NCBI RefSeq assembly: GCF_021044585.1
Contig: NZ_CP087998.1
Coordinates: 992,001 to 1,056,000 of the forward strand
Direction of reading: 5' to 3'
DNA length: 64,000 bases
DNA from: Sulfurimonas sp. HSL-3221
GTDB lineage: Bacteria > Campylobacterota > Campylobacteria > Campylobacterales > Sulfurimonadaceae
The notes beneath the pieces are model-generated. The model made no database searches. It had not been told where the DNA came from and saw only the letters and a program-made list of their open reading frames with translations. Below are positions 22,389-26,847 of the stretch, in pieces; position 1 is the first letter of the stretch, and each line of letters opens with the position of its first letter. Made by a program: the position numbers and the translations under genes.

Positions 22389-22394
22389 TATAAT
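22389..22394 (+). promoter_or_regulatory. -10 box (TATAAT), probable ilvBN promoter
   Basis: A perfect TATAAT in an AT-rich patch lies 355 nt upstream of ilvB and just before the inverted-repeat element, so the element would be transcribed as part of the ilv leader. Confidence 0.5.
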
Positions 22395-22410
22395 TACCCC
22401 ATTTTTATTT

Positions 22411-22679
22411 ATGGGTATCTTCAGCTTTCTGCGCGTATCTCAGAGCGGTTTTGACGTATGAGATTTTCTTTGTTTCCTGCGAAGGCCTGGCTTGGGCCAA
22501 GTCAAGAAGGGAACGGAGGAGAGATCGTACGTCAAAACCCCTCCCGTAGGGCACTGCAGCGAACAACATACTCTGCGTTGCCGCTTTTTGACTTGGCTCA
22601 AGCCAGGCCATCAAAGCGTCGCCTTGATTATGCCTTTCGCTGCAGTGCTGAGACCGTGAAGAAAGCTGGAGATACCCAT
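22411..22679. mobile_element. Putative 269-bp MITE with 20-bp terminal inverted repeats
   Basis: The ends 22411-22430 and 22660-22679 are inverted repeats with 19 of 20 positions matching, flanked on both sides by TATTT (22406-22410 and 22680-22684), as for a 5-bp target duplication. Inside are three more inverted pairs: 22447-22458 with 22528-22539 (12 of 12), 22484-22505 with 22588-22609 (21 of 22) and 22551-22563 with 22636-22648 (13 of 13). It has no coding capacity. It fills most of the 419-bp gap between the Ppx/GppA gene and ilvB. It could alternatively be a structured leader RNA. Confidence 0.6.
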
Positions 22680-22691
22680 TATTTAGATAGA

Positions 22692-22735
22692 GTCTCGGAA
22701 CCGATAGAACACTGTGCTATCTACGAGACGTTTTT
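22692..22735 (+). terminator. Attenuator-like terminator before ilvB
   Basis: GTCTCG (22692-22697) pairs with CGAGAC (22724-22729), enclosing an inner stem GATAG/CTATC around a 9-nt loop. A TTTTT run follows at 22731-22735. The ilvB ribosome site (GAGGAG) begins only 2-3 nt after the T-run, so premature termination or ribosome-site occlusion could control ilvBN. Confidence 0.55.
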
Positions 22736-22749
22736 ACGAGGAGAAAGCC

Positions 22750-24444
22750 ATGCAGATGAGTGGCGCACAGATGGTCATTGAGGCACTGAAACACGAAGGG
22801 GTCGATACCGTATTCGGTTACCCCGGCGGTGCCATCATGAACGTCTATGACGAAATATACAAACAAGATGATTTCCAACATATCCTGACCCGGCACGAGC
22901 AGGCGGCCGTGCATGCGGCGGAAGGGTATGCGAAGGTAACCGGTAAGGTCGGCGTGGCGATGGTCACGTCCGGTCCGGGCTTTACCAACGCCGTGACGGG
23001 AATCGCCGATGCGTATATGGACTCCATCCCTCTCGTCGTTATCAGCGGGCAGGTCCCGATGTCGCTGATCGGAACGGATGCGTTCCAGGAGATCGACTCC
23101 GTCGGTATCAGCCGTTCGTGTACGAAGCATAACTACCTTGTCACCGATGCGGCGGACCTTCCGCGCGTCCTGAAAGAGGCCTTCTACCTCGCCGCGACCG
23201 GGCGGCCGGGACCGGTCCACGTCGACATTCCCAAAGACGTTACCGCACAGATCGCCGAGTTCGACTACAGCAGACCGGTAGAGATGGAGACCTACAAGCC
23301 GACGACCAAAGGCAATGCCCGCCAGATCAAAAAGGCGATCGAGGCTATTGCCGCGGCCAAGCGCCCGCTGCTCTACCTCGGCGGCGGTATCATCAGCGCC
23401 AATGCGGCGGACGAAGTCCGTGCCTTCGCGAAAATGACGGGCATTCCGGCGGTTGAAACCTTCATGGCCCGCGGGACGATGGGGGCGGACAACCCGCTCG
23501 TGATTTCCATGCTGGGGATGCACGGCTCCTACGCTGCCAACATGGCGATGAGCGAAACGGACCTGGTCATCGGCCTGGGGGCCCGTTTTGACGACCGTGT
23601 TACCGGGAAGCTGAGCGAGTTCGCGAAAAACGCCGACATTATCCATGTCGACATCGACCCCGCGAGCATCTCCAAGCTCGTCAACGCGGAGTACCCGATC
23701 GTCGGGGACGTCAAGTACGTCGTCGAAGAGATGACGACCCTGGCAAAGGGTAAAGTCGATCCGGAACGTTATGCCCCGTGGCTGGAGACGATCGACCACT
23801 TCAACAAACTGCATCCGCTGGGCTACGAAGAGGAAGCGGGTACGATCAAACCGCAGTGGGTCATCGAGCGCATCGGGCAGCTGCTGGGTGAAAAGGCGAA
23901 CATCAGCACCGACGTCGGCCAGCATCAGATGTGGACGGCTCAGTTCTACCCCTTCTCGCGGCCGCGCCAGTTCATCAGTTCCGGCGGTCTGGGCACGATG
24001 GGCTTCGGTTTTCCGGCGGCGATGGGGGTCAAGCGCGGCGATATGGAACGCGTCAGCATCAACGTCACGGGCGACGGCTCGATCCTGATGAACATCCAGG
24101 AGCTGATGACGTCGGTCGAGTACAAACTGCCGGTTATCAACGTCATCCTGAACAATCATTTCCTGGGGATGGTCCGCCAGTGGCAGACGCTCTTTTATGA
24201 CAAGCGCTATTCGGAGACGGACCTCTCCATGCAGCCCAACTGGGTCGGGCTCGTCGAGAGTTTCGGCGGGGTCGGCTACAACGTCGAGACGAAAGAGGAG
24301 TTCGACGCCGCGCTCAAAGATGCGGTCGAGAAGAACGTCGTGGCGATGATCAACGTCAGCGTTTCGCGTTTCGAGAACGTTCTGCCGATGGTCCCGGCCG
24401 GCGGTTCGCTGTTCAATATGATGTTGGAATACAAGGATAAATGA
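22750..24444 (+). CDS. ilvB: Acetolactate synthase, large subunit
   Basis: 564-aa ThDP enzyme condensing two pyruvates (valine/leucine) or pyruvate and 2-oxobutanoate (isoleucine). GYPGGAIMNVYDE with the catalytic Glu in RHEQAAVHAAEGYA, FAD-region ARFDDRVTG, and the ThDP/Mg motif GDGSILMNIQEL ending in NNHFLGMVRQWQ are all present. ATG 22750 was chosen for GAGGAG spacing. It overlaps ilvN by 4 nt, and its long leader holds the inverted-repeat element and the attenuator. Confidence 0.97.
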   Translation: MQMSGAQMVIEALKHEGVDTVFGYPGGAIMNVYDEIYKQDDFQHILTRHEQAAVHAAEGYAKVTGKVGVAMVTSGPGFTNAVTGIADAYMDSIPLVVISGQVPMSLIGTDAFQEIDSVGISRSCTKHNYLVTDAADLPRVLKEAFYLAATGRPGPVHVDIPKDVTAQIAEFDYSRPVEMETYKPTTKGNARQIKKAIEAIAAAKRPLLYLGGGIISANAADEVRAFAKMTGIPAVETFMARGTMGADNPLVISMLGMHGSYAANMAMSETDLVIGLGARFDDRVTGKLSEFAKNADIIHVDIDPASISKLVNAEYPIVGDVKYVVEEMTTLAKGKVDPERYAPWLETIDHFNKLHPLGYEEEAGTIKPQWVIERIGQLLGEKANISTDVGQHQMWTAQFYPFSRPRQFISSGGLGTMGFGFPAAMGVKRGDMERVSINVTGDGSILMNIQELMTSVEYKLPVINVILNNHFLGMVRQWQTLFYDKRYSETDLSMQPNWVGLVESFGGVGYNVETKEEFDAALKDAVEKNVVAMINVSVSRFENVLPMVPAGGSLFNMMLEYKDK

Positions 24445-24914: not shown

Positions 24915-25910
24915 GTGCGACTCTCTCTTATCGCGGAAACACTCGGTACGCCGCTGCCGGGTGAAGAGCGCGAGATTCGTGCGATGAATACGCTGGCAGA
25001 GGCGTCGGCAGAAGAACTCTCCTACCTTTCCGACAATCGCTACCTCAACTCCCTGGAAACGACAAAAGCCGCGGCCGTGCTGGTCAAAGCGGATGCCGTA
25101 GATGCCGTTCCGGAGCACTGCATCGCACTTGTCTGCGAGGATGTCTCCCTTAGCATGGCAAAGGCAACGGCACTCTTCGCCCCGCCGCTGATCGATCATG
25201 ATGCCTCCGAACCGGTTATCGGAGCGGAGAGCTTCATCGACCCGCGCGCTAATATCGAGAAGGGGACGGTGATCGGCAAGGGCGTCACGGTGATGGCCGG
25301 CGCCTATGTCGGATCAGGCGTCGTGATCGGCGACGATACGGTGATCTTCCCCAATGTGACAATCTACCGCGACTGCCGTATCGGTTCGCGTTGCCGCATC
25401 CATGGCGGCAGTACCATCGGCGCGGACGGCTTCGGCTACGCGCATACGGCCCAGGGCGAACACGTCAAGATCTACCAAAACGGCAACGTCGTCATCGAAG
25501 ATGACGTAGAGATCGGGGCAAACTGCTCGATCGACCGGGCGCTGTTCAATTCGACGATTGTCCGCCGTGGCGCCAAGATCGACAACAACGTGCATATCGG
25601 CCACAACTGCGACATCGGGGAGCACTGTATCTTCGTTGCGCAGGTCGGCGTCGGCGGGTCGACGCATCTGGGCCGCAACTGTGTCGTCAGCGGTCAGACG
25701 GCCTTTTCCGATCACCTCGAGATTGCCCCGTTTACGACCTTCACGGCGCGTTCGGGCGTCACAAAGTCTATCAAGGAGAGCGGTAAAATCTTCAGCGGCT
25801 ACCCACTGATGGAACATCGTCTCTGGACCCGGCTTCAGAGCCGGCTGTCGAAGCTGGCCAAAGAGGGGATCAGCACCAAACGGAGGGCGAAAGCACATGA
25901 AACTGAGTGA
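24915..25910 (+). CDS. lpxD: UDP-3-O-acylglucosamine N-acyltransferase, copy 1
   Basis: 331-aa left-handed beta-helix acyltransferase of lipid A synthesis. The N-terminal uridine-binding domain (to about 95) is followed by hexapeptide repeats and a basic C-terminal helix. The catalytic His region [15 protein letters not shown] is intact, as is the GADGFGYA turn. GTG start immediately after ilvN. It overlaps copy 2 by 14 nt and is 15 residues longer, mostly in the C-terminal Lys/Arg-rich tail. Confidence 0.92.
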
Positions 25911-26847
25911 GTTCTGCCAAAAACTCGCCATTCCCTTCAGCGGGGAGGAGCGGGAGATCAACGGTCTCAACGCCCTGCAGGAAGCGGGGCAGAATGAAGT
26001 GAGCTTTTTGGAAAATCCGAAATACGCTTCACAGCTCTCGGGAACGAATGCCGCGGCCGTGTTAGTCACGGAGGAGATGGCGAAAAACCTGCCCGAACAG
26101 TGCACTCCCCTGATCGTTGACGAACCCTATATCACACTGGCAAAAGCTTCCGCTTTTTTCGCGCCTCTTCGTCTGGAGCATGACCTGCCTGAAACCGCCG
26201 TCGGCGAAGGGACGGTGATCGAAGCGGGTGCCTTTGTCGCCAAGGGGAGCCGTATCGGAAAGCAGTGCCATATCATGCCGGGTGTTTTTGTCGGAAACAA
26301 CGTTACGATAGGCGACAACACGGTCCTCTATCCCAATGTCACGGTCTACCGCGACTGCAAGATCGGCAGCGACTGTATCATCCATGCAGGGACGGTGATC
26401 GGCAGCGACGGCTTCGGCTTCGCAACGACGAAACTGGGCGAGCACATCAAGATCTATCAAAACGGCAACGTCGTCATCGAAGATGATGTCGAGATTGGCT
26501 CCAACACGACGATTGACCGCGCCGTCTTCAAGAGCACCGTGATCAAAAAAGGGGTGCGGATCGACAACCTTGTCCAGGTGGGGCACAACTGCGTCATCGG
26601 CGAATACAGCGTGCTGGTCTCGCAGGTGGGGCTTGCAGGCTCTTCCAGCCTCGGACGCAACGTTGTCATGGGCGGCCAGAGCGCGACGGCGGGCCACCTA
26701 TCCATTGCCCCGTTTACGACGATCGCCGCGCGCGGCGGGGTGACGAAGAGTGTCGATAAAGCCAATGTCTACGGCGGATTCCCGCTAATGGAACACAGAC
26801 TCTGGTTGAAACTCCAGGGCAAACTGGCGCGGCTGCTCAAAGCCTAG
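25897..26847 (+). CDS. lpxD: UDP-3-O-acylglucosamine N-acyltransferase, copy 2
   Basis: 316-aa tandem paralogue of the preceding lpxD, with the same domain order and an intact catalytic His in [12 protein letters not shown]. The two start alike ([17 protein letters not shown] against [16 protein letters not shown]), and a 29-nt stretch is identical (25476-25504 and 26458-26486), suggesting gene conversion. Two LpxD enzymes could give acyl chains of different length or serve different sugar nucleotides. It is the last gene of the ilvBN-lpxD-lpxD unit. Confidence 0.92.

Follow-up and report, generated by a model that had tools for sequence, protein, structure and literature searches.

A probable IS5-type MITE between the promoter and gene of ilvB in Sulfurimonas sp. 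HSL-3221 and the covarying palindromic family to which it belongs

Results

The ilvB locus and its inverted-repeat element

The analyzed window (the whole 64-kb stretch of Sulfurimonas sp. HSL-3221 DNA) contains at positions 22750–24444 of the + strand (ATG at 22750) an open reading frame that we take from its sequence to be ilvB, the gene of the acetolactate synthase large subunit. The putative −10 element of its promoter (TATAAT, 22389–22394, +) is identical in those relatives whose ilvB leader lacks the insertion described below; a native leader hairpin followed by GTTTTT (22692–22735, +) is present in them as well and lies outside the insertion. This hairpin with its GTTTTT adjoins the Shine-Dalgarno region on the 5' side, is kept in four relatives and might represent an attenuator-like element that is independent of the insertion. 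Downstream, ilvN is followed by two neighboring genes (24915–26847) that are presumably lpxD-like, as judged from sequence reading only.

Between −10 element and gene, two arms (22411–22430 and 22660–22679) are complementary at 19 of 20 positions, and a second arm pair with at least 18/20 matches and an outer length of 229–309 bp was not found in the 64-kb window. TATTT is present on both sides (22406–22410 and 22680–22684), and the interior contains inverted pairs of 12 bp (GGTTTTGACGTA), 13 bp (GCACTGCAGCGAA) and 22 bp (GGCCTGGCTTGGGCCAAGTCAA, one mismatch). The calculated folding energy of −146.1 kcal/mol (shuffled mean −84, z −12.4) is far beyond chance. The arms, flanks, TATAAT and internal pairs were thus present as given in the preliminary description; its inverted-repeat element was retained, whereas its extent of 269 bp (22411–22679) was replaced by the limits of the mobile unit as set by family comparison, 22413–22677 (+; GGG...CCC, 265 bp). 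Counted from GGG..CCC, 18 of 20 arm positions pair: The 5' terminal inverted repeat GGGTATCTTCAGCTTTCT (22413–22430, +) is a private variant of GGGCACCTCTAAAAACCC, and the 3' terminal inverted repeat (22660–22677, −) is the complement of the 5' arm. Enclosed are hairpin A (22443–22543, +) with a long stem, internal loops and an apical self-hairpin, a tiny conserved CCC-nnn-GGG hairpin (22541–22552, +), and hairpin B (22551–22648, +) with the conserved internal loop CATACTCnGCGTT / GCCTTGATTATG and an apical self-hairpin.

The element has the A-then-B orientation of its family and is co-directional with ilvB; its position, starting 19 nt 3' of the −10 element and 5' of the native leader hairpin, makes transcription as part of the ilvB leader probable. 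The sole listed open reading frame starting inside it (107 aa) reads through into ilvB; the element contains no transposase gene of its own, for which 265 bp are too short. A search of the ilvB leader found no terminator-like site.

Empty sites and dispersed copies

Four relatives (G003, G004, G005, G007) possess the ilvB leader without insertion, the flanks being otherwise nearly identical: the site reads CATTTTTATCTGATTTAGATAGAG in these relatives (empty site sequence TTTTTATCTGATTTAG) and CATTTTTATTT[AT-GGG...CCC-AT]TATTTAGATAGAG in the window. The window sequence is longer by 269 bp net, as expected from an element of 265 bp and a duplication of 4 bp. The empty leader expected for a mobile element was therefore found, whereas TATTT as a 5-bp target duplication had to be abandoned: the family duplicates 4 bp, and the duplication positions read TTAT (left, 22409–22412) and ATTA (right, 22678–22681) as opposed to a single CTGA in the relatives. 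This strong divergence of the duplication sites, together with that of the terminal repeats of the window copy, counts against the interpretation favored below. Without the insertion, the target site (TATCTGATTTAGATA) forms a small palindrome of its own.

Dispersed copies, proposed as a check in the preliminary description, are present in the own 2.52-Mb genome (G000), generally with 71–83% identity, and copies occur in seven of the eight genomes of the genus (own genome included). Related copies sit at unrelated loci, and those of L002, L003 and L004 have empty sites in relatives as well. Owing to the divergence of the arms of the window copy, terminal matches were at first not apparent; the ends typical of the family are GGGCACCTCTAAAAACCC...GGGTTTTTAGAGGTGCCC, and no second paired copy of the private terminal repeat of the window was found elsewhere. 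Among 46 full-length copies, 18 are flanked by perfect 4-bp target duplications and 28 by duplications matching at three or more of the four positions; four G302 copies, whose ends were not located by the automatic procedure, were left out. In G261, the copies are approximately 99% identical and six of seven have perfect 4-bp duplications, which indicates that the family moved recently in this genome. Short derivatives with family ends measure 48, 52, 114, 159–161, 172 and 198 bp.

Several copies deserve mention in their own right. A solo arm of approximately 20 bp (L054:1501–1519, G000) stands opposite a full element in G007 (L032:1480–1747); further solo arms (L049, L050, L053, L055) and short-loop pairs (L051, L056) were seen, and these are remnants of deletion or miniature forms. 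Directly upstream of a presumably sufB-like gene (name read from the protein start), a copy is present in G000 (L005:1479–1747), G004 (L023) and G007 (L166); it shows 2 differences in approximately 271 positions between G000 and G007, the ilvB DNA of which differs by approximately 7%, and local co-option or recent transfer is possible. In L107 (G043:C31), a terminal-repeat-like arm recurs seven times on one strand at intervals of exactly 800 bp, either as a tandem array or as an assembly artefact.

Relationship to IS5-family insertion sequences

The consensus terminal inverted repeat of the family, GGGCACCTCTAAAAACC, from which the window copy has diverged, is found widely across the order and matches the ends of insertion sequences in G043, G044 and L160. 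In G043, an IS5-family transposase of 347 aa (NCBIfam NF033581, 266.8 bits) is enclosed by this repeat; GGGCACCTCTAAAAA ends are present there and also delimit autonomous IS5_4 elements with the 4-bp duplications TTAA and TTAT (G044, Sulfurospirillum sp. UBA12182). The records with related insertion sequences comprise a Campylobacterota MAG, Sulfurospirillum and Sulfurimonas. The MITE resembles the NF033581-type (transpos_IS5_4) elements in the GGGCACCTCTAAAAA.. terminal repeat and in the AT-rich 4-bp duplications; it differs from them in the missing transposase gene, and the similarity is confined to the terminal 18–29 bp. Terminal repeats and 4-bp duplications thus support assignment of the MITE to the IS5 type; given the short shared ends, an origin by internal deletion from a known insertion sequence is regarded as a candidate only. 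The MITE is probably mobilized in trans by an IS5-family transposase; counting against this, an IS5_4 transposase was not found in the own genome (G000) or in the recently active carriers G261 and G167.

Body plan, covariation and distribution

Full-length copies nearly all measure 265–269 bp; the exceptions are L003 and L006, in both of which the same 24 nt (GACCAAAGGGAATGCCCTCGGGTG) are inserted near the apex of hairpin B. The copies have a four-helix plan in common (terminal stem, hairpin A, CCC-nnn-GGG hairpin, hairpin B) that is kept across families despite largely different stem sequences. In an alignment of 43 sequences, changes in both partners were seen for 82 of the 99 pairs, and 92.8% of the cells pair; the covariation score of 0.489 is higher than that of every shuffled (0.172) and every slid alignment (at most 0.136), the latter contrast being inflated as the tested structure was derived from the same alignment. 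Both-side changes were thus found across the family, whereas the structure is absent at ilvB from the four relatives examined.

The preliminary description had also regarded a kissing-loop structure, formed by the 22-bp pair, as possible. The apical loops of A and B are complementary at 19 of 20 positions in the window copy; over the family, Watson-Crick matches range from 6 to 19 of 20 (lowest in one decayed copy of the genus) and amount to 8–13 in distant lineages, and the self-hairpin of each apical loop is mostly kept, better than the complementarity between A and B. The kissing loop is therefore not supported; that the loops match at all is for the most part explained by their both being small palindromes of similar sequence.

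A covariance model built from hairpin B (part of 22551–22648) matched in 40 of 298 genomes of the phylum (approximately one in seven), representing 16 of 58 genera; the sampled related genomes are probably Campylobacterota, as suggested by the named records with related insertion sequences. An Rfam scan gave nothing above the gathering score, with only sub-threshold matches to miRNA hairpins. Phage and plasmid collections queried with the window element gave no match, plasmids queried with the G039 element none either, and viral contigs none to the terminal-repeat pattern. A literature search for MITEs in this bacterial group yielded no description, and the review of prokaryotic MITEs PMC10969869 mentions neither Campylobacter nor Sulfurimonas.

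Is the pairing maintained in RNA or in DNA?

Selected structural RNA tolerates G·U and not A·C mismatches, whereas a palindrome maintained as double-stranded DNA treats both alike. In the element, G·U (G·T in DNA) was counted 152 times and A·C 136 times (54 versus 53 pair types), with pairs picked by Watson-Crick content only and mismatch cells that are non-independent. The SRP RNA control (same genome set and procedure; 15 of 30 fetched sequences, the other 15 having failed the anchor match) gave 25 G·U versus 0 A·C at the most permissive threshold, and 11 versus 0 types. G·U is the more frequent mismatch in hairpin A (82 versus 38), and the balance is tilted the opposite way in hairpin B and in the terminal stem; the covarying stems as a whole do not favor G·U over A·C as selected structural RNA would. 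Relative to the neighboring genes, the copies occur in all orientations without bias (++ 7, −− 9, −+ 13, +− 7). In consequence of the balanced mismatches and unbiased orientation, the pairing is best read as a property of the DNA: complementarity would be maintained either by template switching or by a hairpin/cruciform constraint.

According to the first of these readings, the palindrome is a mutational by-product of quasi-palindrome template switching and its fold is not under selection, which would be compatible with the MITE identity and is, in our estimation, a serious minority possibility. It agrees with the missing G·U/A·C asymmetry and with the two arms of the window copy having been altered in concert and privately; moreover, multi-base compensatory changes are reported to arise by template switching between arms (PMC8794818). 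However, conservation of the length (265–269 bp), the unpaired motifs and the internal-loop positions between genera whose stems have mostly been replaced would not be expected from template switching alone. Selection of a hairpin or cruciform is favored by the conserved length and loops. Extended to the phylum, the elements might constitute a mobile DNA cloverleaf family in which the branched hairpin of the approximately 266-bp element is itself the selected DNA structure, for example as an extruded hairpin recognized by a transposase or host protein, with shape and loops kept and stems replaced; this extension is speculative and somewhat doubtful.

That the mobile element encodes a functional structured RNA, with the fold selected in the + strand transcript, appears improbable. 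Such an RNA would be in line with the conserved branched plan and internal-loop motifs, with helix 10, in which G·U is present and A·C almost missing, and with the near-identical suf-leader copies of G000 and G007; in 41 of 47 copies, the MFE is also lower for the RNA strand as oriented than for its complement, which hints at a strand preference but finds no backing in the mismatch test. The overall mismatch balance as opposed to that of the SRP RNA control and the unbiased orientation argue against it, as do the orthologous copies at loci 2 and 3, which differ by changes without evident compensation. A structured leader RNA regulating ilvB (riboswitch- or attenuator-like), the second proposal of the preliminary description, is very improbable and in its ancestral form already refuted by the empty sites: position between −10 element and ilvB, sense orientation and very stable fold would suit it, but the same promoter and leader are empty in all four relatives examined, related copies are scattered over unrelated loci irrespective of orientation, and neither an Rfam match above the gathering score nor a terminator-like site in the leader was obtained.

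Discussion

The dispersed copies, the empty ilvB site in four relatives, and the terminal repeats and 4-bp duplications held in common with the IS5 family bear out the first proposal of the preliminary description. The segment 22413–22677 is best explained as a non-autonomous IS5-type MITE inserted between the promoter and the gene of ilvB, its complementarity being kept at the DNA level; we assign a probability of roughly 0.87 to this explanation as a whole. The MITE would have entered between the ilvB promoter and the Shine-Dalgarno region recently and only in the lineage of the window. A DDE transposase of the IS5 family, acting in trans, would cut at the terminal repeats, and insertion would be directed into AT-rich intergenic DNA. 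Arm complementarity may then be kept by template switching or templated repair between the arms and/or by the need for a hairpin or cruciform during mobility. In the ilvB mRNA, the element probably lengthens the leader by approximately 270 strongly folded nucleotides; an effect of this RNA on ilvB expression is possible and is regarded as a candidate only.

Among known bacterial repeats, the REP/BIME/REPIN sequences are moved by RAYT (Y1) transposases, and REPs are much shorter than the window MITE. They resemble the present family as dispersed imperfect palindromes of intergenic DNA; the latter differs from them in its target duplications and DDE-type terminal repeats. The prokaryotic MITEs (Correia/NEMIS, ERIC, QMITE and others; PMC10969869) are likewise short, non-coding and intergenic, possess terminal inverted repeats and target duplications, and give rise to transcripts predicted to fold stably. 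Compared with these, the window family has other terminal repeats and another host group, and it is distinguished by the fixed four-helix plan of 265–269 bp, the pair-by-pair covariation and the occurrence of hairpin B in 16 genera.

Locally, the window copy is a naturally occurring insertion that separates the gene for branched-chain amino-acid synthesis from its promoter. For the family, textbook RNA-like covariation is combined with failure in a test of strand symmetry, which calls for caution in covariation-based RNA discovery. The copies also provide a natural data set for the question whether template switching or cruciform function preserves long palindromes.
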